Positions 1 through 12,702 of a stretch of 12,702 nt of DNA are shown here, one piece after another (positions within the stretch are counted from its first letter, which is position 1; each line of letters begins with the position of its first letter). The stretch is taken from the NCBI GenBank assembly GCA_021797365.1, contig JAJZZU010000043.1:1-12702 (forward strand), given 5' to 3'. A program made the position numbers and the translations under genes. Below the pieces are notes generated by a model. That model ran no database searches, was not told where the DNA came from, and worked only from the letters and a program-made list of their open reading frames with translations. The DNA is from Pseudomonadota bacterium. Its GTDB lineage: Bacteria; Pseudomonadota; Gammaproteobacteria; Acidiferrobacterales; Acidiferrobacteraceae.

Positions 1-1248
1 GGCCGGGGAGGGGAGGGGTGGGGGTGTGACATCCTGTTTGCCGAACCCGAGGATCCGGTCATCCTGCGGGCGGACGCGACCCCGGCCGACTGTGCGCGAT
101 TCTTCACCATCCTTGATGACTGCACGGGCCTTGCGGCGGGTGGTACCGTGCCAAACGAGACGCTCCCGTTTTACTACGGGCACTTTCTGTTCCTGAGCTA
201 CGAACTTGTCACGGCATGGGAGTCGCGACTGGCATCACTTCCCTTGCCGGCGGATGTGCCGCTCGCCTGGCTACAGGGCTTTTCAGGGGCGGTTTTGCGG
301 GAGCGGTACGCGGGCCGCGCGATCATCACCGGCAGGGATGCGTCGGTGGTCGCGAGGATCGCCGCCGATCTCAAGCACCTTCCTGCCACGAGGCCATGGT
401 CGCCGATAGCACTCGAGCATCTGAATGAAGACCCCCCCGAGGACTATGAGCGGGGAGTGCGCGACATTCAGGCGCGCATCACCCATGGGGAGATCTTCCA
501 GGCCAACCTGTCCCGCCGCTATTCCGGGCGTATCCGCGCCGGTACCCCGGCCGGTGCGCTGCTCGAGGGCCTGCGCGGGCATAACCCGGCACCATTTTCC
601 GCGATGGCGCGGCTTGGCGACACCCTGATCGCAAGCGCGTCTCCCGAGCGGCTCCTCAGGCGCTGGCGATCACAGGTGACGACCCAGCCCATTGCCGGGA
701 CCTGTGCGCGCGGTCCCGGGGCCCTGGCCGACGAATCGGCGCGGCGCGGTTTACGCACCGACCCCAAGGAGCGCGCCGAGCATCTCATGCTCGTCGATCT
801 CGAACGTAACGATCTCGGTCGCGTGTGCGTGCCCGGCAGCGTCCGGGTCCCGGAGTTCATGCGCATCGAGAGCTTTGCGACCGTCCACCATCTGGTGTCC
901 GACGTGGAGGGCACGTTGCGTGGCGATATCCGGCCATCGCATCTCATTCGTGCGCTGTTTCCGGGCGGCTCCATTACCGGCTGTCCGAAGATACACTGCA
1001 TGGGGATCCTGGCGCGGAACGAGCGCCGCGCGCGCGGCGCCTACACCGGCAGCCTCGGCTATATCAACGAGCGCGGCGACATCGACCTCAACATCCTGAT
1101 CCGCACGCTCGTGGTGCGTGGACCCGAGATCGAGTTTCGCGTGGGGGCCGGGATCGTCGCCGATTCCGATCCGAAACGGGAATTGCTCGAGACCCAGGCC
1201 AAGGCTGCGGGCCTTGTGCGCGCCCTGGGGATCACCGGTCATTGCTGA
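1..1248 (+). CDS. pabB: Aminodeoxychorismate synthase component I (5' partial)
   Basis: The product aminates chorismate to 4-amino-4-deoxychorismate in the cytoplasm for p-aminobenzoate and folate synthesis, normally with the glutaminase PabA. The frame is open from base 1, and the part before the GTG at 148 (DILFAEPEDPV and onward) looks like a PabB N-terminal domain, so the true start lies upstream. Counting from the GTG at 148, visible chorismate-binding motifs are IFQANLSRRY (about 117-125), SASPERLL (163-170), LMLVDLERNDLGRV (213-226), PGGSITGCPK and GAGIVADSDP. PGGSITG is PabB-like, whereas TrpE usually has PAGTxSG. The strip that reads PIKGT in E. coli PabB reads PIAGT here (181-185), as in TrpE. 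pabC follows 106 bp downstream, which supports PabB. Anthranilate synthase is the alternative and is unlikely from context. Confidence 0.9.
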   Translation, partial: GRGGEGWGCDILFAEPEDPVILRADATPADCARFFTILDDCTGLAAGGTVPNETLPFYYGHFLFLSYELVTAWESRLASLPLPADVPLAWLQGFSGAVLRERYAGRAIITGRDASVVARIAADLKHLPATRPWSPIALEHLNEDPPEDYERGVRDIQARITHGEIFQANLSRRYSGRIRAGTPAGALLEGLRGHNPAPFSAMARLGDTLIASASPERLLRRWRSQVTTQPIAGTCARGPGALADESARRGLRTDPKERAEHLMLVDLERNDLGRVCVPGSVRVPEFMRIESFATVHHLVSDVEGTLRGDIRPSHLIRALFPGGSITGCPKIHCMGILARNERRARGAYTGSLGYINERGDIDLNILIRTLVVRGPEIEFRVGAGIVADSDPKRELLETQAKAAGLVRALGITGHC

Positions 1249-1354
1249 TCGCCAAGCCAGTCATGACCGAGAACCCCCCATCCCGCGCGCATCCCCGCCA
1301 TCGGTTCCCGGCGCCGCAGCCCACGGCATACGCGAGCCGCGACGGATCCGCGAC

Positions 1355-2173
1355 ATGAATCCGCTTGCGAGCCTCGTGAACGGCCGCGCACAGTCGCTTA
1401 TGGCCGTGACAAGCCGTCTGCAGTATGGGGACGGACTGTTTGAGACGGTGGCCATTCACAACGGCCGCCTGCTCTTGTGGTCCCAACATGTGCGACGGCT
1501 CATGGCCGGCATCGAACGACTGGGGCTCGCCCCCATCGATGCCGCGCTCCTCACCGCCGAGGCCGAAGGCTTGGCGGCCGCACACAGCCCCGCTATCCTG
1601 AAGATCATCGTGGTGCGCGGGACCAAGGGGCGAGGTTACCGGCCGGCGGCCGCCGCGACCGACCGCATCCTGACGCTGTGGCCCTGGCCCAACCGTCCGG
1701 CAGACGAGCAGGCGCCGGTCTTCTGGTGCCGTACCGCGCTTGCGCGGCAGCCGCTCCTGGCCGGCCTCAAGCATTTGAACAGGCTCGAGCAGGTCCTGGC
1801 GCAGCGGGAATTTGTCGACCCCTATTGGGAAGGATTGATGCAGGACACGCAGGGATGGGTGATAGAAGGGACCATGACCAACCTGTTCGTGGTCGAGGGC
1901 GGCATCCTGACGACACCGATCCTTGATCAGGCGGGGGTCGCGGGGGTGATGCGCGATCAGGTGATGAGGCGCGCGCGCGAATCGGGTATGGTGGTGCGCC
2001 TCGACAATCTGACGAGCACGCGGGTCATGGAGGCAGACGAGGTCTTTTTAAGCAATTCGGTGATCGGTGTACGCCCGGTCCTATGTCTTGCCGAGCGCCG
2101 GTGGCGACGCGCTCCCGTGACATCGCGGATGGCGGAGATCCTGAGGGCCTGTGGCGATGCGCCCGCTCTCTAA
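1355..2173 (+). CDS. pabC: Aminodeoxychorismate lyase
   Basis: This is a PLP enzyme (fold-type IV, D-amino-acid transaminase family) that cleaves 4-amino-4-deoxychorismate to p-aminobenzoate and pyruvate. The frame is open from 1118, but only the ATG at 1355 gives a family-like N-terminus and length (272 residues; E. coli PabC is 269). Motifs are RLQYGDGLFETV (21-32), KIIVVRGTKGRGY (83-95), GLKHLNRLEQVL (137-148, with K139 as the expected PLP lysine), EGTMTNLF (171-178, phosphate/PLP contacts) and ADEVFLSNSV (227-236). No strong ribosome binding site precedes the ATG. The gene sits between pabB and mltG, the same pabC-mltG-tmk-holB order as E. coli, and its last codons overlap the mltG start. 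Confidence 0.93.
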   Translation: MNPLASLVNGRAQSLMAVTSRLQYGDGLFETVAIHNGRLLLWSQHVRRLMAGIERLGLAPIDAALLTAEAEGLAAAHSPAILKIIVVRGTKGRGYRPAAAATDRILTLWPWPNRPADEQAPVFWCRTALARQPLLAGLKHLNRLEQVLAQREFVDPYWEGLMQDTQGWVIEGTMTNLFVVEGGILTTPILDQAGVAGVMRDQVMRRARESGMVVRLDNLTSTRVMEADEVFLSNSVIGVRPVLCLAERRWRRAPVTSRMAEILRACGDAPAL

Positions 2174-3233
2174 GTGGGGCCTCGGCGCCCTGGTCGTGTG
2201 TGGCCTCTCGGCGGCCGGATGGTATCTGCTCGCCGATCGCCCGCTGCATCCGGGCGTAAAGACCTTCCACCTACCCACCGGGACCACCATGCGCGCCTTC
2301 GCGGAACTGCTTCAAAGGCGCCACGTAATCGATTCCGCAAACACCTTCGTGGCGCTTGCGGAGCTCACGGGGGAGGGCGATGCCTTGAAGACCGGCGTGT
2401 ACCGGTTTCCCGACCCGACAACCCCCCTTGGTATCCTGCACAGGGTGGTGACCGGGCAGGTCGTCGAATATCCGCTCACGCTCGTGCCCGGCTGGACGTT
2501 CCATCAGGTGCGGCAGGCCTTGGCCCGCGCGCCGCATCTCACAGACGACGTGGGGGGCCGCTCGCATGCCGCGGTGCGCGCCGCGCTGCATATGCATGCA
2601 AGCCTCCAGGGGGCGTTTTTCCCGGACACCTACTACTATACCTATGGGGCATCGGCCACGTCGGTACTGGCGCGCGCCCGCAAACGCCTGCGCGCGCTGC
2701 TCGGTAAGGACTGGCGCAAACGCGCCCCCGACCTGCCTCTGCGCACGCCGCAGCAGGCCCTGATCCTGGCATCCCTCATCGAGAAGGAGACCGCCAAGGC
2801 CGGCGAGCGGCGCAAGATCGCGGGCGTGTTCGTCAACCGCCTGCGTCTTGGTATGCGGCTTGAAACCGACCCCACGGTGATCTTCGGTCTCGGCAAACGC
2901 TACCACGGGGTCCTCACCAGCACCGATCTCGCATACCCGAGCCCCTACAACACCTACCTCCATTATGGGCTGCCGCCAACACCCATCGGCCTATGCAGCG
3001 CCCGCACCCTTTATGCCGCGCTCCACCCCGACAAGACGCGTGCCTTGTATTTTGTGGCCACCGGACGCGGAGGTCATGTATTCTCTGATACTCTCCAGGC
3101 GCAAGACGAGGCAATCCGTAAGTATGAGATCGACAGCACCCCGCCGGCCGTTGTTCCTGAGTCTCGAGGGGCTCGACGGGTCGGGCAAGACCACGCAAAT
3201 CGATCGCGTCGCAGACTTCTGCGAACACCATAA
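2157..3233 (+). CDS. mltG: Endolytic murein transglycosylase MltG (YceG-like)
   Basis: The product is an inner-membrane lytic transglycosylase that cuts nascent glycan strands in the periplasm and so limits chain length. The ATG at 2157 is preferred because GAGGG lies 9 nt upstream; a GTG at 2151 is the alternative. Residues 7-26 form one membrane anchor. The YceG domain follows, with ASLIEKETA (205-213), where E209 corresponds to catalytic E218 of E. coli, then AGVFVNRLRLGMRLETDPTV (222-241), the YNTY...GLPPTPI stretch (264-277) and a terminal GGHVFSDTL (305-313). Family similarity ends near RKYE (321-324). The last 34 or so residues form a basic, proline/arginine-rich tail whose DNA is also the first 110 bp of tmk. 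The start overlaps pabC by 17 bp. Confidence 0.93.
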   Translation: MRPLSKWGLGALVVCGLSAAGWYLLADRPLHPGVKTFHLPTGTTMRAFAELLQRRHVIDSANTFVALAELTGEGDALKTGVYRFPDPTTPLGILHRVVTGQVVEYPLTLVPGWTFHQVRQALARAPHLTDDVGGRSHAAVRAALHMHASLQGAFFPDTYYYTYGASATSVLARARKRLRALLGKDWRKRAPDLPLRTPQQALILASLIEKETAKAGERRKIAGVFVNRLRLGMRLETDPTVIFGLGKRYHGVLTSTDLAYPSPYNTYLHYGLPPTPIGLCSARTLYAALHPDKTRALYFVATGRGGHVFSDTLQAQDEAIRKYEIDSTPPAVVPESRGARRVGQDHANRSRRRLLRTP

Positions 3234-3750
3234 CGCCGCGGGCGTCGTGGTGACCCGGGAGCCTGGAGGGACGGAAGTCGGGGAGCGCATTCGCCATATC
3301 CTGCTGGAACACGCCTCACTGCACGCGCAAACCGAGCTTCTGCTGGTGTTCGCGGCGCGCATACAGCACGTCAAGGCGGTGATCGCCCCGGCGCTGGCGC
3401 TCGGCAAGACCGTCGTCTGCGACCGCTACCTGGACGCCACCTACGCCTATCAAGGCTACGGGCGAGGCCTCGACATCTCCTTGATAGACGCCATGACACG
3501 CCTCCTCGACATCCCGCTGCCAGACCTCACCTTCTATTTCGATGTACCCGTGCCCGTGGCCTTGGCGCGACGCGCGGGACGCGCCGCTGATCGCATCGAG
3601 GCCGAGGGTGAGGAGTTTTTCGGGCGGGTGCGCGAAGGTTATCGCCGGCGGGCTCAGGACGATCCGGGGCGCTTTGTCGTCATACCCGCCACGGGGTCCT
3701 TGACCGAGGTCGGAGAGGCCGTGGACGCGGCCCTTGCAGGGCGCTGGTAG
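3124..3750 (+). CDS. tmk: Thymidylate kinase
   Basis: The product phosphorylates dTMP to dTDP with ATP, an essential cytoplasmic step in dTTP synthesis. The ATG at 3124 gives 208 residues, the usual size. Starts further upstream in the same frame would add non-family sequence that belongs to mltG. Motifs are the P-loop GLDGSGKTT (16-24), TREPGGT (44-50), CDRY (99-102) followed by AYQGYGRGL, and a lid region with R149, R150, R153 and R157. The gene starts inside mltG (110-bp overlap) with no convincing ribosome binding site, so translational coupling is likely. holB begins 6 bp after the stop. Confidence 0.95.
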   Translation: MRSTAPRRPLFLSLEGLDGSGKTTQIDRVADFCEHHNAAGVVVTREPGGTEVGERIRHILLEHASLHAQTELLLVFAARIQHVKAVIAPALALGKTVVCDRYLDATYAYQGYGRGLDISLIDAMTRLLDIPLPDLTFYFDVPVPVALARRAGRAADRIEAEGEEFFGRVREGYRRRAQDDPGRFVVIPATGSLTEVGEAVDAALAGRW

Positions 3751-3756
3751 ATCGCC

Positions 3757-4695
3757 ATGTTGCCTTGGCAGAAGGCGGCATGGGACCGCGTAGGCGACAT
3801 AGAGCGCCTACCCCACGCGCTGCTTTTAAGTGGACCACCCGGCATTGGAAAACGCCTGTTCGCCGAGCGCCTCGCGCGCCGGCTGGTGTGCGAGCACACC
3901 ACGGCCTGCGATGCCTGTCGTGCCTGCCGACTGGCCGCAAACGACAATCATCCGGACGTTCTGATCGTGCGCCCGCAAGAGGGCAAGACCGAGATCACAG
4001 TCGACGATGCCCGGGCCCTCAATCAGTTTCTGGTGCTGACACCCCATCTCGCAACGCGCCGCGTGGTGCTCGTCGTCGACGCCGACCGCCTCAACCGATC
4101 GGCCTCGAATGCAATCCTAAAGACCCTCGAAGAACCGCCCTCCGGCAGTTATCTGCTCTTGGTCAGCGATGCCCCGACCCGCCTCTTGCCCACCATCCGC
4201 TCGCGCTGCCAAAACCTGATCCTGCCACGACCGACAGAAGAGGAGGGGCTTTCCTACCTGCAGGCCCATCAGCGGCCGGACCCGGGAGGGCTGTTGGCAT
4301 TGGCCCACGGGGCGCCGCTACGCGCCCTGGCATGGCCGCACGACGCACCCGCCATGGCGCAACGACTCTTCGCGAGCCTGGAGGCCGTGGCCCTGGGCCG
4401 CGACTCGGCACTGGAGGCTACCGAGGCCTGGCAGGCCAGCGACATGGAGATGGGATTGGCCTTCCTGACGGAGATCGCAACCGCCGTGACGCAGGTGGCA
4501 CTGACTGGAACCATCGCCCGGGGCTGGCAGGGCGCCCAGGAAGGGCGCTTGCGTGCTTTGGCGGCTCGACTAGACTTGGAGCAAATGCTCGGCCTCTGGG
4601 ATGAGGCGCTCGAGACCCGGGGTCTGCTCAACGCACCCCTGGATCGCCGTCTGATGTGGGACCGGCTGTTTTTGCATGTTGAGCCGCGAGGGTGA
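3757..4695 (+). CDS. holB: DNA polymerase III subunit delta'
   Basis: This is a stator subunit of the clamp-loader complex, which loads the beta clamp onto primed DNA. It has 312 residues and an AAA+ fold. GPPGIGK (26-32) is a Walker-A sequence that looks intact, unlike the degenerate one in E. coli delta'. Four cysteines (C45, C51, C54, C57) form the expected zinc module, followed by HPD (65-67). SNAILKTLEEPP (117-128) and TIRSRC (146-151) are sensor/SRC motifs typical of delta'. The C-terminal third is a helical collar domain. The gene lies 6 bp after tmk, and its stop lies 8 bp before the preferred pilZ start. Confidence is high from both motifs and synteny. Confidence 0.94.
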   Translation: MLPWQKAAWDRVGDIERLPHALLLSGPPGIGKRLFAERLARRLVCEHTTACDACRACRLAANDNHPDVLIVRPQEGKTEITVDDARALNQFLVLTPHLATRRVVLVVDADRLNRSASNAILKTLEEPPSGSYLLLVSDAPTRLLPTIRSRCQNLILPRPTEEEGLSYLQAHQRPDPGGLLALAHGAPLRALAWPHDAPAMAQRLFASLEAVALGRDSALEATEAWQASDMEMGLAFLTEIATAVTQVALTGTIARGWQGAQEGRLRALAARLDLEQMLGLWDEALETRGLLNAPLDRRLMWDRLFLHVEPRG

Positions 4696-4703
4696 GTAGT
4701 GAT

Positions 4704-5084
4704 ATGTCGACCGTAGAATCACAGACACGAGACAACCTAAAGGCCCCGGTACGTCCCGGCGTCTTATCGCTCGTAATCAAGGACCGCAATGCCTTGTACA
4801 CCGCTTACATGCCGTTTCTGAAAGGCGGTGGCCTGTTCATACCGAGCAACAAACCCTACAAGCTCGGCGATGAAGTCTTCATGCTGCTCACCCTCATCGA
4901 CAGCAAAGAGAAGGTGCCGGTCGCAGGCCACGTCGTCTGGGTGACGCCTCAGGACGCGCCCGGTGGACGAGCACCGGGTATCGGCATCCAATTTAGCGCC
5001 AAGGACGCCGAGGTCGCGCGCACCAAGATCGAGACCCTTCTCATAGGCCAATTGCAATCGGATCGCCCGACCCATACGATGTAG
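4704..5084 (+). CDS. pilZ: Type IV pilus PilZ-domain protein
   Basis: This is a single-domain PilZ protein of 126 residues. It resembles the original Pseudomonas PilZ, which is needed for type IV pilus assembly and works with PilB and FimX-type partners. Characteristic runs are GVLSLVIKDRNALYTAYMPF, GGLFIPSNKPYKLGDEVFM, VAGHVVWVTP and GIGIQF. The RxxxR c-di-GMP motif of canonical PilZ domains is not visible at the N-terminus, as in the pilus-type PilZ, so direct c-di-GMP binding is doubtful. The ATG at 4704 has GAGGG 11 nt upstream; a GTG at 4692 overlapping the holB stop is less likely. The position between holB and tatD matches Pseudomonas. No other pilus gene is in the window. Confidence 0.92.
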   Translation: MSTVESQTRDNLKAPVRPGVLSLVIKDRNALYTAYMPFLKGGGLFIPSNKPYKLGDEVFMLLTLIDSKEKVPVAGHVVWVTPQDAPGGRAPGIGIQFSAKDAEVARTKIETLLIGQLQSDRPTHTM

Positions 5085-5086
5085 GG

Positions 5087-5878
5087 ATGCCGTTAGTCGA
5101 TTCGCACTGCCATCTCCATTTCGCCCCGCTGCGCGACGATATCGACGCCGTCTTGGCGCGCGCCCACGAACGCGGCGTGTCCCATATGCTGTGCGTCAGT
5201 GTTGGACTCTCGGATATCGGGCCCATACAGGATGTCATGCGCCGGGACCCGAGCGTCTTCGGCTCGGTCGGCATCCACCCCAATGAGGCGGGCGGCACGG
5301 ATTCGCTCTTCGATGACCTCGCGCGCCTGAGCACGCACGAGGGCATCGTTGCGCTCGGTGAGACCGGCCTTGATTACTATCGATTGGAGGGGCAGGACGT
5401 CACCCGCCAACAGACGCAGTTTCGCCTGCACATCGCGGCGGCCCGGCATGTCGCCAAGCCGCTCATCATCCATACGCGCGAGGCCGCCGCCGATACCCTG
5501 CAGATCCTGCGCGACGAACACGCACGCGATATCGGGGGCGTCCTGCATTGCTTCACCGAGAGCGCGGATTTCGCGCGCCAGGTCCTCGATCTCAACTTCT
5601 GTATCTCATTCTCGGGAATAGTCACCTTCAAGAGCGCGCAGGCGCTGCGGGATGTCGCGCGCCTCGTACCGGAAGATCGCCTCCTGATCGAGACCGACGC
5701 CCCGTATCTGGCCCCCGTTCCGCACCGCGGGCAATCGAACGAGCCGTCCTACGTCTCCCATGTCGCGCAATGCCTGGCGGACGTCCGGGGTGTGTCCTGG
5801 GAACGGATCGCAGAGACCACCGCGGACAATTTCTTCAGGCTTTTCAAGGATGCGGCCGCTGATCCGCGCCGCACATAA
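5087..5878 (+). CDS. tatD: TatD family metal-dependent DNase
   Basis: The product is a cytoplasmic TIM-barrel metallohydrolase with 3'-5' exonuclease activity known in E. coli TatD and YcfH-type relatives; its exact role here is not settled by sequence. It has 263 residues. Metal ligands expected for the family are all present: H7 and H9 (DSHCHLHF), E92 (LGETGLDYY), H129 (IIHTREA), H154 (LHCFTE) and D204 (ETDAPYL). The ATG lies 2 bp after the pilZ stop, so it is probably the last gene of the operon. An inverted repeat follows the stop by 5 bp. The E. coli paralogue that follows holB is ycfH, so the label tatD means TatD family rather than strict orthology. Confidence 0.93.
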   Translation: MPLVDSHCHLHFAPLRDDIDAVLARAHERGVSHMLCVSVGLSDIGPIQDVMRRDPSVFGSVGIHPNEAGGTDSLFDDLARLSTHEGIVALGETGLDYYRLEGQDVTRQQTQFRLHIAAARHVAKPLIIHTREAAADTLQILRDEHARDIGGVLHCFTESADFARQVLDLNFCISFSGIVTFKSAQALRDVARLVPEDRLLIETDAPYLAPVPHRGQSNEPSYVSHVAQCLADVRGVSWERIAETTADNFFRLFKDAAADPRRT

Positions 5879-5883
5879 GCCAT

Positions 5884-5909
5884 GTAACGCTTTTACATCA
5901 AAGCGTTAC
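5884..5909. terminator. Inverted repeat between convergent genes, possible terminator
   Basis: The arms GTAACGCTTT (5884-5893) and AAAGCGTTAC (5900-5909) are perfect 10-bp complements with a 6-nt loop. An outer A-T pair (5882/5911) can also form. The repeat lies between the tatD stop and the convergent DoxX-like gene, where a bidirectional terminator would be expected. The stem is not especially GC-rich and no clean T-run follows; on the + strand it is followed by GTAATATTTC. A protein-binding operator is the alternative reading. Confidence 0.5.
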
Positions 5910-5962
5910 GTAATATTTCTGATGTGGTTTATGCGCGCACCCGAGGACTGGTCCCTAAGCCC

Positions 5963-6913
5963 TTATGTGGACATGCGTTTACGCCGACGGCGCTCGAAGA
6001 GATAGGCGATCATCAGATACAGGTAGACCACCATGTAGATATTGGTGGTGCCAAGCATATCCCCGCGGTTGCCGGTGCTTCCGGGCTGGTAAGGACCGCC
6101 CCAGCCCTCGGCCGTCGTCCATATCCCGAAGGAATACAGAAATCCGATCGGTAGAAACCATTCCTGCCAGCGCTTCAGGAGCAGGCTCGCCGCCAGAACC
6201 GTCTCGATGACTGCCGCGAAGACACCAAACACGGTCTGCCCCACGAGTTGGATCGCCGCGATGAAGAACCCGATATAGGCGGCAACCCAGGCGGGCTGGC
6301 CGACCTCGGCTTGTTGCAGATAGGACAGGCTATGTTCGAAAAATGCCGGCTGCCATTTCCAGAACGCATCGAATGCCCACAAAAGCCCGAACAGGATGCG
6401 CACGATCTCGATGCGTCCGGTCCCGACCACGGGCTGCGATTTCGGTCCGATGGCAAGTCGCTGCTCCGAAGGCACCGACAGAACCGCCAAGAATACGAGC
6501 GCATACACGATGGCGGTTCCCGGATCCGTGGAGCCGGGCTGAAAGGGGCCGCCCAGGCCTCCCACGGTCACCCAGAGCGCGAGGCTGTAGACGATCCCCA
6601 GGCGCGCCATGGGCCGCACCGCGAAGCCCGTGATGAGCGAGATCGCGAGCAGCCCATCCAGAACTACGGTGCCGATCGCCACGTGGCGCGGACCCAGCAC
6701 GGTCACGACATGAATGACGCCATGAAGGAAGGCCTGCACCACGTGCGGTTGCCCCTTGAGCCGCTTGACGATGGATGTCAGAAAACGGCCCACGTAAGCG
6801 CTATTGGCCTCGAGTATCGTGTTGATCAGCCAGATCACACCAAAGAGGATACGCATTCCGGCAAAGGCCAGCTCCTGACTCCCGGTGTAACGTGACGATC
6901 GGTCCTCAAACAT
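5963..6913 (-). CDS. Tandem DoxX-like integral membrane protein
   Basis: This is a 316-residue membrane protein with about nine hydrophobic helices, built from two related halves. Half 1 has RILFGVIW (21-28), helices near 56-73, 78-98, 104-118 and 133-147, and GLGGPFQPGST (119-129). Half 2 repeats this with RILFGLLW (172-179), helices near 208-245, 252-266 and 290-305, and GWGGPYQPGST (270-280). The layout and the G-G-P-x-x-PGST loop recall the DoxX/DoxD superfamily, which includes the membrane subunit of thiosulfate:quinone oxidoreductase, but substrate and activity cannot be read from the sequence. The C-terminus is very basic (FERRRRKR). The frame is open up to 7213, but the ATG at 6913 with a strong AAAGGAGAG site fits. 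It converges on tatD, and no partner gene such as doxA is nearby. Confidence 0.8.
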   Translation of the reverse strand: MFEDRSSRYTGSQELAFAGMRILFGVIWLINTILEANSAYVGRFLTSIVKRLKGQPHVVQAFLHGVIHVVTVLGPRHVAIGTVVLDGLLAISLITGFAVRPMARLGIVYSLALWVTVGGLGGPFQPGSTDPGTAIVYALVFLAVLSVPSEQRLAIGPKSQPVVGTGRIEIVRILFGLLWAFDAFWKWQPAFFEHSLSYLQQAEVGQPAWVAAYIGFFIAAIQLVGQTVFGVFAAVIETVLAASLLLKRWQEWFLPIGFLYSFGIWTTAEGWGGPYQPGSTGNRGDMLGTTNIYMVVYLYLMIAYLFERRRRKRMST

Positions 6914-7370
6914 GCAACAGGCTCTCCTTTCCCTGCGGTTGCCAATAAGATATTGCTCCCTCGCAATCGGACTATAGTACAAAGGCATGGTGCCTGCCCA
7001 CCGCCCCATCGCCCCGACTTGCGCATATCGCCGTCTTCGGCTCGGTCCCGGACCAGTCCCGCCCGCACGCGCTTCGCGCACGTGCCGTGGAAGGCCCGTG
7101 GGAGATGGGGGAGGAGGGGACGATACCCGGTTCACGAAAAAGCGCGGAGGCCACAAGCCTCGCTGCGGACAGGGCCATGGCCTCCATGCAAGGCAGGGCC
7201 CATACGACGGCAAGTGGACTCGTCGTCCGGCCTGCCGCTCCTTTCATCGATCCGGCGGCCGTCGCCCCTCATGGGCCCTTGGCGCGCTCAAAAGCTGCGT
7301 CTACCATGCCTTCCGCCCGTCCATCGGGAACATCCCCCACGGGCGCGCTAAAAGGAGCGAGGAGTCCATC
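6914..7370. other. Intergenic region between divergent genes, no gene seen
   Basis: This 457-bp stretch separates the minus-strand DoxX-like gene from the plus-strand lipoprotein gene, so it should hold two divergent promoters. The palindrome ACTATAGT (6971-6978) offers a -10-like TATAGT on both strands, but I see no good -35 for either. Open frames through here are GC-driven and have no coherent protein features. I see no tRNA or IS end. Confidence 0.6.
6922..6930 (-). promoter_or_regulatory. Ribosome binding site fixing the DoxX-like start
   Basis: On the minus strand AAAGGAGAG lies 8 nt before the ATG at 6911-6913. This is a near-ideal Shine-Dalgarno sequence, and it argues against the 100 extra low-complexity residues that the open frame would add upstream. 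Further up on the same strand, TATAGT (6971-6976) is a possible -10 element, but no convincing -35 accompanies it. Confidence 0.7.
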
Positions 7371-7559
7371 ATGTCGAAATCCCTGAGGTTTCCGAAAATC
7401 CTGGCTCGCGGTCTGTTCATCCTCGCCGGGACGAGCATTCTGGCCGGCTGCTTCTTTGCCCCGCCAGGTGACTACGAGCACCATGGATGTTACCGGTGTG
7501 GTGACTATGACCATCATTATGATCATCGCGACCATCGCGACGATCGGGGCGATGACTGA
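7371..7559 (+). CDS. Small His/Asp-rich lipoprotein, function unknown
   Basis: The predicted product has 62 residues. A basic N-terminus (MSKSLRFPK) and a hydrophobic stretch end in the lipobox LAGC (24-27), so C27 should be lipidated after signal peptidase II cleavage. The mature chain is only 36 residues. It contains two further cysteines (C40, C43, spaced CxxC) and a tail made almost entirely of D, H, R and Y (45-62). Such composition is compatible with binding divalent metal in the periplasm or at the outer membrane, but that is inference. The ATG at 7371 has GAGGAG 6 nt upstream and a second AAAGGAG just before it, which is strong translation evidence for a gene this small. The frame stays open far upstream, but that part is not lipoprotein-like. 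I do not recognise a named family. Confidence 0.7.
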   Translation: MSKSLRFPKILARGLFILAGTSILAGCFFAPPGDYEHHGCYRCGDYDHHYDHRDHRDDRGDD

Positions 7560-7592
7560 CGCGTCGCATCCCGAGATTCTGTCTTCGCGTTC

Positions 7593-7617
7593 CCGCCTGG
7601 GCCGACAACCCAGGCGG
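7593..7617 (+). terminator. GC-rich hairpin after lipoprotein gene
   Basis: CCGCCTGGG (7593-7601) and CCCAGGCGG (7609-7617) are perfect 9-bp arms around a 7-nt loop, 33 bp after the lipoprotein stop. The position and GC-rich stem suit transcription termination. The following bases (TTCCCAAAG) lack a T-run, so this is a weak or Rho-assisted terminator at best. Confidence 0.5.
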
Positions 7618-7892
7618 TTCCCAAAGATCCCCGAGCACACCCCATCGTCCCTAACCCCAAGCGGAATCCACGCCCGCACATAGATCGCCCGGCAGCAAGA
7701 AGCCCTCGGGTCTGCGGACTGTAGACGGCAGCCGGCTTCACCATTCAAGTGTCTCTCGCGGCACGCGCCTGCGGTCGCCACACCTCCTGCAAGGTTCAGG
7801 GGCGCGACGCGTCGTCCTCGGGTTCGCCACCGCAGGCCCAAGACCGTGGCCGCATCCAGCGCCGTCCGGGGCCGCCCCGGACGACTCCCATT

Positions 7893-7920
7893 GGTTCGTA
7901 TAATGTATATTATGTTAACT
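7893..7920 (+). other. dif: dif-like XerC/XerD recombination site
   Basis: The 28 bp read GGTTCGTATAA (XerC arm), TGTATA (central region), TTATGTTAACT (XerD arm). The E. coli dif site, as I recall it, is GGTGCGCATAA, TGTATA, TTATGTTAAAT. That gives 25 of 28 identical positions, with 9/11 in the XerC arm, 6/6 in the centre and 10/11 in the XerD arm. dif is where XerCD, activated by FtsK, resolves chromosome dimers at the replication terminus. The site sits in an AT-rich island of an otherwise GC-rich non-coding stretch. A copy captured by a Xer-dependent integrating element is the main alternative to the native chromosomal dif. I saw no second copy in the window. Confidence 0.88.
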
Positions 7921-7967
7921 CAAAGACGCCAGAACATAAGGCGAGTTAATGCCAACTCGCCTTTGAG
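7915..7967. repeat. Nested, mutually exclusive inverted repeats beside dif
   Basis: Three short blocks can pair in three ways. Block A (TTAACTC, 7915-7921) pairs with GAGTTAA in block B (7943-7949). Block B (AAGGCGAGTT, 7938-7947) pairs perfectly with AACTCGCCTT in block C (7954-7963) around a 6-nt loop. CTCAAAG in A (7919-7925) pairs with CTTTGAG in C (7961-7967). Block A overlaps the XerD arm of the dif-like site. B:C is the most stable pairing. Confidence 0.7.
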
Positions 7968-8154
7968 CCCTTATCGCAGCGTTACGGACTCGGTCGCCAC
8001 TCGTATCAGGAGCCCTGCTTCTCCCTCGCCGGGCCGGGGTCGGGGCCAGCCCCGCATCAAGGTCGCGGATAGCGTGCCCGGCCTGACACATATCCCCCGC
8101 ACGATTTCTGCGCGATAATGTGCGACGCGAGGTCATCATGGAGGAGCATAATCA

Positions 8155-8364
8155 ATGAACACGAACGAAGGGCTGTTGGATCGCGTCATCCGCGTCATCA
8201 TCGGAGTGGTCTTGATCGCGCTGGCAGTAACCGGTCGGTGGACGCCTTGGGGATGGATCGGGGTCCTGCCTCTCATCACGGGCCTTGTGGGGTTCTGCGG
8301 CCTTTACCAGATACTCGGCATCAAGACCTGTCCCGTAAGGACGGAAAAGCATCGGCCGTCGTAA
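8155..8364 (+). CDS. DUF2892 (YgaP-like) small inner-membrane protein
   Basis: This is a 69-residue protein with two membrane helices (about 11-27 and 32-55) and the family-typical end FCGLYQILGIKTCP, with cysteines C48 and C59. DUF2892 is the membrane part of YgaP, a sulfurtransferase (rhodanese) in E. coli; here the domain stands alone, without rhodanese. The N-terminus MNTNEGLLDRVIRVIIG is also typical. GGAGGAG lies 8 nt before the ATG. The role is unknown; the two cysteines at the membrane face and the presence of TusA and glutaredoxin genes nearby make a link to sulfur or thiol chemistry possible. The nearest downstream gene is 128 bp away on the same strand and may be co-transcribed. 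Confidence 0.88.
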   Translation: MNTNEGLLDRVIRVIIGVVLIALAVTGRWTPWGWIGVLPLITGLVGFCGLYQILGIKTCPVRTEKHRPS

Positions 8365-8492
8365 ACGGCAACATTTCTTGGCGGCGACCGAAACGACGTC
8401 AGCGGCTTTTTCGGTTATGGCAAGGCGTGTGCGCGTGGGAGGACCGCGGGCTTGTATTATCGTGCAGGACGTGCAACTTCGGGAGGAACTCG

Positions 8493-8945
8493 ATGGCAGA
8501 GACGATCAGCGGAAGTGCCTTTCAGGCCGCGTTGACTGGCCCTTTCAGCGGTATCGTGAGCTGGGCACAGCTCACGGAACTGTGGGCCACGGTCCGCGCA
8601 TGCCCGGAGGGATGGTATATCTATGCGATCGGCGAACCCGTGCCCACCGGCGCGGCCGACCCTAAGGCCCTGATACGATTCACCGAGGAGATCGATACGC
8701 TTTTGCGGCGCGAGCATCGCGAGGACTACTGTGGCATCGTCTACGCCGACGACAAGACGCAGCCGAGCTTCATCAAGATCTTCGACCCCCACAACCTGGG
8801 GAGCTCGTGCGGCAGCTCCGGCGTAAAGACCCTGCCGGGATGGCTATTGACGCGTATGCCTCCGGAAACACTGGCCGATCCCCGACCCTTGCCGGAAAGC
8901 CGGAAGCGCTGGTGGCGGGGACTTTTTCAACGCCAGTCCGCCTAA
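8493..8945 (+). CDS. Conserved-looking soluble protein, function unknown
   Basis: The product has 150 residues, no signal peptide and no membrane segment. The frame is open from 8118, but that upstream part overlaps the DUF2892 gene. The ATG at 8493 has GGAGG 6 nt upstream, so it is preferred. The sequence is balanced and looks structured: it has a helix-rich N-terminus, EGWYIYAIGEP (39-49), an acidic/basic helix with EEIDTLLRREHREDYCGIVY (65-84), KIFDPHNLGSSCGSSG (95-110) and a tryptophan/arginine-rich tail (RKRWWRGLF, 138-146). Cysteines are C37, C80 and C106. I do not recognise a named domain. A short hairpin followed by TTTT overlaps the stop codon. The gene sits between a DUF2892 protein and a glutaredoxin-like protein, which hints at but does not prove a redox or sulfur role. 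Confidence 0.8.
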   Translation: MAETISGSAFQAALTGPFSGIVSWAQLTELWATVRACPEGWYIYAIGEPVPTGAADPKALIRFTEEIDTLLRREHREDYCGIVYADDKTQPSFIKIFDPHNLGSSCGSSGVKTLPGWLLTRMPPETLADPRPLPESRKRWWRGLFQRQSA

Positions 8946-8955
8946 GGGCGGTTTT
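8938..8955 (+). terminator. Short hairpin plus T4 at gene end
   Basis: CCGCC (8938-8942) and GGCGG (8947-8951) form a 5-bp stem around the stop codon, directly followed by TTTT (8952-8955). This is a compact intrinsic-terminator shape, but the stem is short. Confidence 0.4.
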
Positions 8956-9070
8956 GCCTTTAGGTTGCATCTGCCATAATCCCCGCATGCATGATGGGGA
9001 TGTGCGGTCATAATTGCGCCCCGCGCCCCGCCCCTATTCTCGGCCCATTGCGGGTCGCGGCCCGGCATGC

Positions 9071-9085
9071 GGAGAAAGGGAATTG
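9071..9085 (+). promoter_or_regulatory. Ribosome binding site deciding a TTG start
   Basis: GGAG at 9071-9074, within GGAGAAAGGG, sits 8 nt before the TTG at 9083-9085. This supports a non-ATG start for the glutaredoxin-like gene over the TTG at 9014, which follows a stop codon (9011-9013) and lacks a purine-rich site. Confidence 0.55.
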
Positions 9086-9328
9086 CCAAAAGCGATCGAT
9101 CTCTATACAAGCCCCGGATGCCCGGATTGCGCGGCGCTGAAGGCGTGGTTTGCGGCACACGACATAACATTCATGGAACACGACTTGAGCCGACCGGGGG
9201 CCGCCGATAAGGCCAAGACGGAATTCGGTGTGCGCATCGCCCCCATCACGGTCTATGAGGGACAGGTGTTCTACGGAACCGCCCAGGAGCAATTACCGCG
9301 ATTGCAGCGCCTCTTCGGCCTCGATTGA
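9083..9328 (+). CDS. Glutaredoxin-like thiol-disulfide oxidoreductase
   Basis: This is a small thioredoxin-fold protein of 81 residues. The active-site CPDC (13-16) follows IDLYTSPG, and the cis-proline is expected at P54 (RIAPITVYEG, 51-60). The end FYGTAQEQLPRLQRLFGL is typical of monothiol/dithiol glutaredoxins and NrdH-like proteins. The probable start is TTG at 9083, because GGAG (9071-9074) lies 8 nt upstream and the product then begins just before the first beta strand. A TTG at 9014 would add 23 proline/arginine-rich residues without family character, and no ATG or GTG lies in frame at a sensible position. Its partner (glutathione, thioredoxin reductase or another protein) cannot be told from the sequence. 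Confidence 0.85.
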   Translation: MPKAIDLYTSPGCPDCAALKAWFAAHDITFMEHDLSRPGAADKAKTEFGVRIAPITVYEGQVFYGTAQEQLPRLQRLFGLD

Positions 9329-9454
9329 ACGGACCTGCCCCGTCTAAACCGCCTCGATCTTCCGCGAAGGTGCGCGAACACGCTTAAGAAACCAGATTAA
9401 GACATTTTAGTAAGAACCTATTTCCCAACGATTTATTTGAGGATAAGTCTTTCC

Positions 9455-10699
9455 ATGGGATACGCGCGACTCCCGCGCGAAGCGCGGCTTCTGATCGTTA
9501 TTCGGGCCGCGCGTAGCGTAGGCCAAGGGGCGCTTGTCGTGGACTTCGCGCTCTATTTGCACGCGCTCCACTGGTCCGCCCCCGCAATCGGGGGGCTTTT
9601 TATGGTGGCGCTGCTGGCGTCGGCGACGCTCGCGCTGTTCGTGGGACCGTTATCCGATACACGCGGGCGTAAGGCCTTCTTGCAGGCCTATGAGTGGGTC
9701 CAGATGGCCGCGGCCCTCATGGCGCTCACGGATTCGCGCAGCGCCGTGCTTGCGATCGCGGCCATTCTTGGCGGCTTTGGCCACGGCTTGAATGGGGGCG
9801 CCGGCCCTTTTGCGCCGGTCGAGCTCGCCTGGCTTTCCGAGATGGTCGAGGCCCGGGACCGTGCCGCGGTCTATAGCCTGAACACGGCCATGGGGTTTTC
9901 GGGTATGGCGCTGGGGGCGCTGCTCGCTGCGCTCCCTTCCTTTCTGGGAACCCTCCTCCCGGGACCGCTTGCCTATCGTCCGCTGTTTCTTCTGGTGCTT
10001 TTGGGCGCCCTGCTCGGCCTTGTCCTGCTGCGCGCCATCCCCGAGGTCGCGCGACTGGAACCAGGCCAGAAGCACGATACTGATGATACCAGGGCCGTGG
10101 CGGATGCCTTGACGCGCGCCGAGAACCGCAAGCTCCTCAAACTTTTCGGGATCAATGCGCTAAACGGCATAGGCATAGGTTTCATGGGGCCGTTGATGGC
10201 CTACTGGTTTGCGATCCGGTTTCACCATGGCCCTTTAAGCATCGGGCCCATCATGAGCGTGGCATTGATCGTCACCGCCGTCTCCTCACTCCTGGTAGGT
10301 CGCCTGACGCGTCGTTACGGGGTCGTAAAATCCGTGCTCGTGATGCGCTATCTGGGGCTTGCGGTGTTGCTGATACTGCCGCTTTCACCCTCTTTCCCGA
10401 TAGCGGCGATCCTTTACATCATCCGCTCGGCGCTCAATCGTGGCACGGCCGGTGCGCGCCAGGCGCTCAATCTTGGCCTCGTCCGTGGCCATCGGCGCGG
10501 GCTGGCCGCGAGCCTCAACAACGTCGCGGTCCAGATGCCACGCGCCGTGGGGCCCGTATTCGCGGGCCTCCTCTATCATGCCGGCTTTCTCGCACTCCCA
10601 TTCTTCATTGGTGGCGGCTTCCAGGCGATCTACCTCGTCCTCTACCGTCGCCTGTTTCGGGATTCGCCATCGGTGCCGCTCACCTCCCCTTCCGAGTAA
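9455..10699 (+). CDS. Major facilitator superfamily transporter
   Basis: This is an inner-membrane secondary transporter of 414 residues with about 12 hydrophobic helices in two halves, joined by a hydrophilic loop (about 197-230, rich in D, E, K and R). The MFS loop 2-3 signature is clear: GPLSDTRGRK (64-73). A weaker counterpart lies in the second half (GRLTRRYG, 282-289). Family membership is secure, but the substrate is not: nothing in the sequence tells sugar, drug or ion transport apart. ATG at 9455 has GAGGA 11 nt upstream; a TTG at 9437 would add six residues. The 100 bp upstream is unusually AT-rich, contains TTAAGA twice (9384, 9397) and probably holds the promoter. The gene stands alone. 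Confidence 0.9.
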   Translation: MGYARLPREARLLIVIRAARSVGQGALVVDFALYLHALHWSAPAIGGLFMVALLASATLALFVGPLSDTRGRKAFLQAYEWVQMAAALMALTDSRSAVLAIAAILGGFGHGLNGGAGPFAPVELAWLSEMVEARDRAAVYSLNTAMGFSGMALGALLAALPSFLGTLLPGPLAYRPLFLLVLLGALLGLVLLRAIPEVARLEPGQKHDTDDTRAVADALTRAENRKLLKLFGINALNGIGIGFMGPLMAYWFAIRFHHGPLSIGPIMSVALIVTAVSSLLVGRLTRRYGVVKSVLVMRYLGLAVLLILPLSPSFPIAAILYIIRSALNRGTAGARQALNLGLVRGHRRGLAASLNNVAVQMPRAVGPVFAGLLYHAGFLALPFFIGGGFQAIYLVLYRRLFRDSPSVPLTSPSE

Positions 10700-10702
10700 C
10701 CA

Positions 10703-10960
10703 TTAAGCGGCGTTATCAATGGTGACCTCAAACCGTTCAAGCGGAATCGCGCGACGCCAAGACGACCACCCGGCGCTGAGGGAGCAATTAGTCAATTGGT
10801 GCGCCGTGGAAATCCAGGCTAGCCGTGCCTCGGGCCGGGCTCGTCCAACAGCCGGTTTAGATCGCGGCTCGCTACGCTCTCGCGATCTAACCTTATCCGT
10901 TATCGCTTTGCAGGGGAACCTCACCCTTATTTGAGGAGCAGCAAGATACTTGACCCTCAT
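10703..10960 (-). pseudogene. Possible gene remnant or repeat-borne ORF
   Basis: The minus-strand frame encodes 85 residues. The last 30 or so (NCSLSAGWSSWRRAIPLERF, then EVTIDNAA) have a balanced, protein-like composition. The first 50 are arginine-rich and read across a hairpin, which suggests chance coding. There is no clear ribosome binding site. It could be the 3' end of a lost gene, or a dispersed repeat with a spurious frame. I cannot assign it to a family. Confidence 0.3.
10854..10892. repeat. Imperfect hairpin
   Basis: TAGATCGCG (10858-10866) and CGCGATCTA (10881-10889) are perfect 9-bp complements with a 14-nt loop. The outer bases GGTT and ACC extend the stem with one bulged T. 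No T-run follows on either strand, so it is not a standard terminator. It may belong to a dispersed repeat. Confidence 0.55.
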
Positions 10961-10978
10961 GGCCGCGTGGACTAATGT
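10950..10978 (+). promoter_or_regulatory. Candidate sigma-70 promoter for tusA cluster
   Basis: TTGACC (10950-10955, five of six to the -35 consensus) is followed after 17 bp by TAATGT (10973-10978, a weak -10). It would give a leader of roughly 120 nt before tusA. The call rests on spacing and the -35 alone. Confidence 0.35.
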
Positions 10979-11106
10979 GCACCTTTACGTACACGTCAGA
11001 TTATGTGCGTGGACGGTCGTGACGGATGGCAGCAAGAGGCGTGCGTGGCCGCCGCAGTCGTCCAATACAACCATGACGCGAAGTGTGTTCGCCGGAGGAA
11101 ACCGAT

Positions 11107-11346
11107 ATGTCCGATTACGATAAAGCGCTTGATGCCCGCGGGCTCAACTGTCCATTACCCATTCTTCGAACGAAGAAAGCCTTGACCGACCTCTCACCGG
11201 GCCAAGTTTTGCAGATCGTGGCAACTGATCCGGGGGCCATCAAGGATTTCCAGGCTTTTGCCGCACAGACCGGCAACGAATTGATTGCATCCCATGAGGG
11301 CAATGGGGAGTTCGTTTTTTTACTACGAAAGAAGTCTCATCAATAG
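11107..11346 (+). CDS. tusA: TusA/SirA-family sulfur carrier protein
   Basis: This is a 79-residue cytoplasmic sulfur-relay protein. The hallmark LDARGLNCPLPILRTKKAL (8-26) holds the persulfide-carrying C15 followed by P16, and the rest fits the compact two-layer fold (VLQIVATDPGAIKDF and onward). TusA passes sulfur for tRNA thiolation, and in sulfur oxidisers related copies move sulfane sulfur in oxidation pathways. Which role applies here is not decided by sequence, but no tRNA-thiolation gene is nearby. The ATG at 11107 has GGAGGA 7 nt upstream; an earlier ATG at 11083 adds eight residues and is unlikely. The HMA-like gene starts 27 bp downstream and a MerR-family gene follows 4 bp after that, so the three are probably one transcript. 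Confidence 0.9.
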   Translation: MSDYDKALDARGLNCPLPILRTKKALTDLSPGQVLQIVATDPGAIKDFQAFAAQTGNELIASHEGNGEFVFLLRKKSHQ

Positions 11347-11373
11347 AGCGGCGCAGCCGGATGGAGGCTCACC

Positions 11374-11616
11374 ATGGAGACAAGATCCATGTCTTGCGTA
11401 AAGGTCCTGATCCATATCGACGAAGAGCTTGATGAGATGCACATGCGTTGTGTGTCCGAGTACTTGATGAAGATACCGGGGACCGCGGAGGTCGCGTATG
11501 ACGCGCAACGAAGCCATCTGTTGTTGGCAAGTTACGATCCCAAGACGGTATCCGCCGAAACCTTGCTGCGGTCGGTAGGAACACAGGGTTTGCGCGCGCA
11601 ACTGGTCGGATTGTAG
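11374..11616 (+). CDS. HMA-like small protein lacking the CXXC metal site
   Basis: This is an 80-residue protein whose pattern fits the ferredoxin-like beta-alpha-beta-beta-alpha-beta fold of heavy-metal-associated domains: strand VKVLIHI (9-15), helix about 21-33, the turn IPGTAEVAYD (34-43, compare LPGV.V.V in HMA), strand SHLLLASYDP (47-56), helix 59-70 and a final strand. The metal-binding GMxCxxC loop is absent; in its place is IDEELDEMHMRC, with a single cysteine (C26). Canonical copper/mercury binding is therefore unlikely, although M22, H23, M24 and C26 could still coordinate soft metal or carry sulfur. ATG at 11374 has GGAGG 6 nt upstream. It lies between tusA and a MerR-family gene, which suggests a shared task. 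Fold assignment is by pattern only. Confidence 0.75.
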   Translation: METRSMSCVKVLIHIDEELDEMHMRCVSEYLMKIPGTAEVAYDAQRSHLLLASYDPKTVSAETLLRSVGTQGLRAQLVGL

Positions 11617-11620
11617 TGTC

Positions 11621-12142
11621 TTGACTCACCGCCAACGCGCGGGGTCCGGGGATGGCTCAACGAAGACCTTGAAGATCGGCGAAGCGGCACGCATCCTCAA
11701 AACCACGCCACGGACGCTGCGTTTCTATGAGGAGCTGGGCCTGCTAGCGCCCGCGCGCAGCATAGGAAAGACTCGCTGTTATACGACGAGCGACATCTCC
11801 CGCCTCCACGCGGCCTTGAGCTTAACGGAGCTGGGCATCGGCCTGCGCGCTGTGATCGCACTGGCCGATGCTAGACCCAGTAGCCGCACGGGGGGTACGG
11901 CAAGTCGCAAGGTCGATCGTCTTTTCGCCGAAATGCGACGCGACATTGAAGCCAAGAGGGCTCGATGCGAGACGATCTTGCACCAGATCAATGCCGCCGA
12001 AGCCTTGGTGCGCCAATGTTTTGGTTGCCAGGAGCCGCCGCGGCACGATAGGTGCCGCGCTTGTCCCGTGGCACGCCATGTCGACGATGTGCCACTCTTG
12101 CGGCTTGTCTGGGACCAAAACGGCCCAGACATGCGATCCTGA
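11621..12142 (+). CDS. MerR-family regulator with C-terminal cysteine cluster
   Basis: This is a 173-residue regulator. The winged helix-turn-helix is clear (LKIGEAARILKTTPRTLRFYEELGLL, 17-42), followed by a long dimerisation helix (about 95-130). The sensor end carries C133, C136, C145 and C148 as CX2CX8CX2C (QCFGCQEPPRHDRCRACP), with C53 and C116 elsewhere. Mercury MerR uses a different three-cysteine layout, so this is not a standard mercury sensor. The four cysteines could hold zinc, an Fe-S cluster or act as a thiol/persulfide sensor. The start is uncertain: TTG at 11621, 4 bp after the previous stop, is chosen for coupling, but a TTG at 11669 would begin nearer the HTH. It probably belongs to the tusA transcript and may act on it or on merA. 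Confidence 0.85.
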   Translation: MTHRQRAGSGDGSTKTLKIGEAARILKTTPRTLRFYEELGLLAPARSIGKTRCYTTSDISRLHAALSLTELGIGLRAVIALADARPSSRTGGTASRKVDRLFAEMRRDIEAKRARCETILHQINAAEALVRQCFGCQEPPRHDRCRACPVARHVDDVPLLRLVWDQNGPDMRS

Positions 12143-12147
12143 GTCGA

Positions 12148-12178
12148 GGCCCCAGCGGCTGATCCAGGGGCCGCGGTT
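12148..12178 (+). terminator. Hairpin after MerR-family gene
   Basis: GGCCCC (12148-12153) pairs with GGGGCC (12167-12172), and an alternative stem GCGGC/GCCGC (12155-12159/12170-12174) overlaps it. GCGG and a TTTT run follow (12177-12180). It lies 6 bp after the stop, as expected for the end of the tusA-merR transcript. Confidence 0.45.
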
Positions 12179-12253
12179 TTGCCACTATTGGTGTCTCCCG
12201 CCGCTACGCCAGTCACTGGCGCTCTCTTCCCTATACTTATCCCGGCACCCTCC

Positions 12254-12702
<449 letters not shown>

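Follow-up and report, generated by a model that had tools for sequence, protein, structure and literature searches.

A conserved companion block beside the native dif site of a gammaproteobacterial genus

The dif site and its neighbours

The window, by which we mean the whole stretch of DNA that was analysed (12,702 nucleotides), contains a dif site lying between a short lipoprotein-like open reading frame and a YgaP-like transmembrane gene, with a further conserved element, here called the companion block, beyond its XerD arm (Table 1). No Pfam match was obtained for the lipoprotein-like frame. Directly left of dif, in window positions 1-5878, are pabB, mltG, holB and a TatD-family gene, together with a weak PilZ-like open reading frame whose TIGR02266 score is under the cut-off; a pabB/mltG/holB core cluster at a terminus was unexpected to us. 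At the other end of the window, positions 10700-12254 carry TusA-like and MerR-family genes and have no aligned counterpart in the nearest genome (G001), and this stretch is followed by a mercuric-reductase-like gene at 12319. Three listed open reading frames overlap dif (7749-7949, 7846-8118 and, on the minus strand, 7915-8139), all of which were taken as mechanical and spurious.

Table 1. Positions of the features at and around dif in the window
Feature	Position	Strand	Description or basis
Lipoprotein-like ORF, left of dif	7371..7559	+	62 aa; lipoprotein by eye
dif GGTTCGTATAATGTATATTATGTTAACT	7893..7920	+	Pattern match, comparison with E. coli dif
dif XerC arm	7893-7903	+	Comparison with E. 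coli dif
dif central hexamer TGTATA	7904-7909	+	Intact relative to E. coli dif
dif XerD arm	7910-7920	+	Comparison with E. coli dif
Switch interval, G001-like (left) to G014:C14-like (right)	7893..7918	.	Alignments
Spacer between dif and companion block	7921..7935	+	15 bp; 41% mean pairwise identity in ten 15-bp spacers
Companion block ATAARGCNAGTTAATGCCNACT	7936..7957	+	22 bp; 88% mean pairwise identity, 11 loci
Block as degenerate inverted Xer-like site, 7-bp centre (tentative)	7929..7957	-	Arm-pair scan
YgaP-like transmembrane gene (PF11127), right of dif	8155..8364	+	Pfam match

The 28-mer is the sole dif match across the window at up to three mismatches, and no such match arose in any of 200 dinucleotide shuffles of the window. 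An earlier note on this DNA had identified it as dif because it shares 25 of 28 positions with the E. coli site, a count that we reproduced with the central hexamer intact, and had called the XerC arm the more divergent of the two, which is borne out by two differences there against one in the XerD arm (read from the letters). The same note placed dif in an AT-rich island; this is correct for the site itself and wrong for its surroundings, as 200-bp windows over 7700-8099 are 58-70% GC. The 28-letter reference string used for E. coli dif occurs in K-12, on the minus strand of the region retrieved, and also in PMC3025954.

Position at the replication terminus

All genome-wide tests were made in G001, the nearest genome, in place of the window's own assembly. 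G001 is closed in one contig of 3,398,398 bp and is syntenic with the window, positions 1-10700 of which align to G001 1774848-1785576 at 96.7% identity. A search of this whole genome for the 28-mer yielded a single match at up to three mismatches, differing by one base and located at 1,782,785, and no further dif-like site at up to eight mismatches in the 80 kb round it. As dnaA begins at base 252, this dif lies at 52% of the circle, opposite dnaA. GC skew and KOPS were sampled in 44 stretches of 20 kb (880 kb). The skew passes from +0.002 (1.745 Mb) through -0.006 (1.765 Mb) to -0.032 (1.785 Mb), a switch at dif; single stretches elsewhere, mostly near the origin, also fluctuate about zero. 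The KOPS motif, GGGNAGGG, was counted 48 times forward and 26 times reverse in 21 stretches left of dif, and 14 times forward and 55 times reverse in 19 stretches to the right, with the four stretches at the origin and dif omitted. A MatP-type reading was rejected, there being no sites resembling the matS motif, GTGACNNNGTCAC, in the 880 kb sampled.

G001 encodes XerD (362 bits, cut-off 330), a 371-aa open reading frame best matched by XerC at 308 bits, under the cut-off of 335, and an FtsK_gamma domain over its cut-off, and no better dif was found elsewhere in this genome at a skew switch. A dif match at up to three mismatches is present in 16 of 60 genomes round G001 (G001 counted among them), and 12 of the 16 belong to its genus (g1). 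A looser pattern was present in six of seven genomes (G002, G008, G011, G015, G016 and G017) and was not found in G018. Combining the strict and looser searches, all 14 genomes seen from the genus have a dif.

These results bear on an alternative that the earlier note had set beside a native site, namely that the 28-mer is the edge of a Xer-integrated element. Sites of this kind in E. coli and other bacteria do receive Xer-integrated elements, and in one E. coli locus (L220) an integrase-bearing insert adjoins dif. Yet neither the window nor G001 contains a second copy at up to three mismatches, or the two dif-like copies flanking foreign DNA that are the hallmark of an IMEX. The site is syntenic in G001 and G009, it recurs with the same right-hand neighbour gene in 11 loci of the genus, and it sits at the skew and KOPS switch, so that the integrated-element edge is contradicted in G001 and is, in our estimate, extremely improbable. 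The 28-mer is a native chromosomal dif and in that respect ordinary; as the earlier note had anticipated for a native site, the window presumably lies at the replication terminus, dif being at the terminus in the syntenic G001. The companion block and a jump in divergence at dif, both of which had gone unnoticed when the dif itself was correctly identified, are not ordinary.

The companion block

Conservation of the block was measured in 11 independent loci of the genus (G001, G003-G007, G009, G010, G012, G013 and G014:C50); the window and G014:C14 also carry it and were excluded from these counts. The block follows dif after 15 bp in 10 of the 11 loci and after 16 bp in the remaining one, and its alignment has 16 invariant columns. 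Its distance to the next gene start ranges from 88 to 252 bp. As the distance to dif is almost fixed while the spacer sequence and the distance to the gene vary, the block is firmly tied to dif and not to the gene.

The 11 loci average 1.49 bits of information per column over bases 13-32 after dif, against a mean of 0.16 for 35 loci of Pseudomonas type and 0.12 for 56 of Enterobacterales type among the matches listed, and in neither set of control flanks was a block found at a fixed position. The control groups were assigned by record titles, one title in the Enterobacterales-type group being Martelella, and comprised 37 and 58 loci picked among the matches listed, 35 and 56 of them with long enough flanks. 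Altogether, dif loci outside these genus loci number at least 119, with 112 among those listed having long enough flanks. Four Halomonas-type loci are conserved throughout, at 0.99 in the block bin and 0.55-0.95 in the other bins outside dif, and are uninformative on this point.

Within the genus, the block stands beside dif in 11 of 14 genomes. It is missing at the dif of three genus members (G002, G008, G011) and of three genomes from sister genera (G015, G016, G017), the best right-flank matches being 13-14 of 22 in both sets, and dif would thus work without it in these six. The exact gapped pattern of dif plus block occurs in two of 369 genomes of the class, a sample that held two genus members, G001 and G005. 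At up to three mismatches the block core was present once per genome in six of 21 genomes, and G004, G006, G010 and G013 carry the block beyond that limit. Among the genomes checked, the companion block is limited to this genus. No description of a conserved block at a fixed distance from a chromosomal dif was found in the accessible parts of the open-licence PMC literature, and the available portions of PMC9765430 (on Legionella dif) and PMC3025954 contain nothing on such a block.

On the bottom strand of the window, the block reads AGTTGGCATTA-ACTCGCC-TTATGTTCTGG, and an arm-pair scan placed the best Xer-like arm pair at the block in all 11 tails. The register is offset 8 with a 7-bp centre in 10 loci and offset 9 in the other, as required by its 16-bp spacer. 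Arm-pair scores are above the 95% level of shuffled tails in nine of the 11 loci (G005 and G007 are below), G010 and G014:C50 prefer a different arm layout, and under column permutation the mean score was equalled or bettered in 1 of 2000 trials. Across the 11 loci, agreement with the genus dif consensus is 7-9 of 11 positions for the XerC-like arm and 5-7 for the XerD-like arm. In the control loci among the matches listed, the commonest right-side register was common to 2 of 35 and 4 of 56 loci, and one left-side register was common to 7 of 56 Enterobacterales-type loci. The mean Xer score of the block is -0.8, against about 44 attained by real dif sites, and a position weight matrix from the 112 other dif loci among those listed gives the window's block an unremarkable -12.9, with higher scores in at least 12 of 224 control flanks. 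The block thus resembles an inverted, degenerate Xer site weakly, and a second Xer site is a reading that we hold only loosely. A contig titled Piscirickettsiaceae (L039) has a second strong dif-like site, with a score of 26.1 and starting 54 bp left of dif, which is possibly the edge of an integrated element.

We favour, at a probability of about 0.7, a native dif with a companion that is functionally tied to it, the block being a putative dif accessory site. The most serious competitor is a plain dif with the block near it by chance, serving the YgaP-like gene as an operator or 5' element, or the lipoprotein-like gene as a terminator. The same gene does follow dif in all 11 block-bearing loci, a good hairpin (z -3.1) is predicted for the block in the window, and AGTT-N6-AACT resembles a dimeric operator by eye; the best-kept part of the block, AGTT-N6-(N)ACT, likewise fits an ordinary dimeric regulator site. 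This explanation is nevertheless unlikely, since the block keeps its distance to dif but not to the gene, and in G008, G015 and G017 this gene comes next to a dif that has no block. The hairpin fares no better across the genus, as three outer pairs of its eight fail in 5 to 7 of the 11 rows and its covariation is no greater than in shuffles. A GATAAT-like box near the downstream gene, found in the last 75 bases upstream of it in nine of 11 loci (counted by eye), stands apart from the block.

Very unlikely, and below the operator or terminator in our ranking, is an origin of the block in a phage or island that used Xer to enter dif in the genus ancestor and has since decayed, much as CTXphi would, the attP of which consists of two inverted dif-like sites. 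The inverted dif-like look of the block speaks for such an origin, as do close dif-like sites in 40 viral-contig stretches, which suggest that Xer-using phages are common. Dif plus block was absent from the viral, phage and plasmid collections, however, and the one viral contig in which the block pattern was matched lacks a neighbouring dif core in the part available; nor would a remnant be expected to keep 16 invariant columns and its spacing while the spacer diverges. Accessory DNA left of dif in G004 and G010 is no evidence for Xer insertion, as it sits before the lipoprotein-like gene, away from dif. The 40 viral contigs (L227-L266), many of about 7-8 kb, are presumably, from their dif-like sites, Xer-using phages.

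Several narrower candidates were rejected. An intrinsic terminator or RNA element is at odds with the conservation, which is lacking for the hairpin that looks good in the window, and no Rfam match was found in the window at gathering thresholds. A small open reading frame from the ATG inside the block was discarded by eye, as the frames differ in length between loci and G004 has no ATG there. A phage or plasmid origin was dropped on the collection searches described above.

Under the preferred reading of a dif with a functional companion, KOPS-oriented FtsK would reach the native dif of what is probably an Acidiferrobacter-like gammaproteobacterium, and XerC and XerD would exchange strands across TGTATA, converting chromosome dimers to monomers as expected by homology. 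In most of the genus (11 of 14 genomes) dif is a composite with the 22-bp block on its XerD side. As the block is on that side at a nearly fixed 15-bp spacing, any factor bound to it would probably be positioned so as to contact or restrict the dif complex on its XerD/FtsK face. The companion may be an inverted, recombination-inert Xer site or may bind an accessory protein specific to the genus, in either case controlling the timing of dif synapsis; the former, a second, inverted Xer binding site, we hold only tentatively, at somewhat worse than even odds.

The system shares with E. coli dif/XerCD-FtsK 25 of 28 bases, the centre, the terminus position and the encoded XerD, XerC-like and FtsK-gamma proteins, and differs in the conserved block that lies 15 bp past the XerD arm and has no counterpart at a fixed position in the 56 Enterobacterales-type dif flanks among the matches listed. 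Like CTXphi attP it may have two Xer-like sites, inverted and close together; here, in contrast, a complete chromosomal dif would be paired with a degenerate site that has a 7-bp centre, and no phage genes lie beside the window's site. The notion of conserved accessory DNA beside a Xer core links the locus to cer and psi, where XerCD acts with PepA and ArgR or ArcA, and in cer that DNA is on the XerC side. The accessory DNA and proteins of cer and psi are described in PMC5357621, the DNA of cer measuring about 180 bp, whereas here a 22-bp block lies 15 bp off on the XerD side with a putative binder. The pdif modules of Acinetobacter plasmids similarly have dif-like sites used by XerCD (PMC12907356 and PMC6449649), but the present locus has no second site able to flank a module. 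Proteobacterial dif recombination has been argued, from the 6-bp centre, to need no accessory elements (PMC2731167). A genus in which dif retains an additional block at a fixed spacing would offer a natural and testable case of an accessory-controlled chromosomal dif.

The divergence jump at dif

Alignment of the window to G001 shows 20 substitutions in positions 1-7892, one in dif (7919) and 266 in 7921-10700, with 45 alignment-gap columns left of dif and 26 to its right. The 4302-bp contig G014:C14 is identical to the window over 7893-12090 (4198 bp) and differs at once leftwards. Of 21 genomes, G009 alone has a match, at 97%, to the 104-bp left flank of this contig, and right of dif the window, which equals G014:C14 there, is 85% like G009. 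The same right flank therefore stands behind two left flanks, joined in dif. The draft genome G014 holds two different dif sites, on C14 and C50, and C14 looks like a foreign contig.

The jump is either a real exchange at dif or an assembly chimera. Within this question taken alone, we put a chimera or an ordinary RecA recombination endpoint ahead of a Xer-mediated exchange and regard it as the probable explanation. Across the joint the window agrees exactly with G001 over 26 bp (7893-7918), and with 23-26 shared bases at dif an assembler using a small k could be misled; G014:C14 is a 4.3-kb draft contig, and as it is identical to the window over 4198 bp, the two may come from one mixed population. 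In addition, the change of parentage in the E. coli recombinant L219 falls at +30 to +74, counted from the start of dif, and hence beyond the 28-mer. An assembler would nevertheless have needed k of 26 or less to make a join within the 26 shared bases, a RecA endpoint would need to fall within the 26-bp run, and the meeting of two unlike left flanks with the same right side at dif argues against an artefact.

If the jump is real, dif would also be a joint for swapping terminus DNA between species, and this would bear on what the dif-bearing DNA of outer membrane vesicles can do (PMC10913375). Vesicle DNA is enriched for dif and is influenced by XerCD, according to PMC10913375 and PMC7901474. 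A possible route would be the uptake by neighbouring cells of vesicle-borne, XerCD-shaped terminus DNA that bears dif, fixed by one Xer and one homologous crossover. That the dif of this genus is a two-part Xer cassette and also a joint for swapping terminus flanks between species-level lineages appears quite unlikely to us.

E. coli was used as a test of dif-specific exchange, with 12 of 26 listed rows fetched which, together with K-12, gave 13 loci, the listing being spread over 5362 matching records; H11, H12 and H15, taken as possible Shiga-toxin strains, and 11 other rows were left out. Distances were compared in 10 of the 13 loci, L220, L223 and L224 having been dropped for an insert at dif or for want of a comparable flank. 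The flank comparison gave a correlation of 0.06, with left flanks too rearranged to interpret, and dif-specific exchange is not supported in the 10 E. coli loci compared, where the sole recombinant (L219) breaks outside the 28-mer. In L220 and L223 the resemblance to K-12 ends within dif (at position 755 of the query, where dif occupies 749-776), with genes including a restriction endonuclease at the break in L223 and the integrase-bearing insert in L220. L225 (E. coli ST131) differs from the other aligned E. coli loci throughout its left flank, as far as the edge of dif, and aligns well with them in its right flank.
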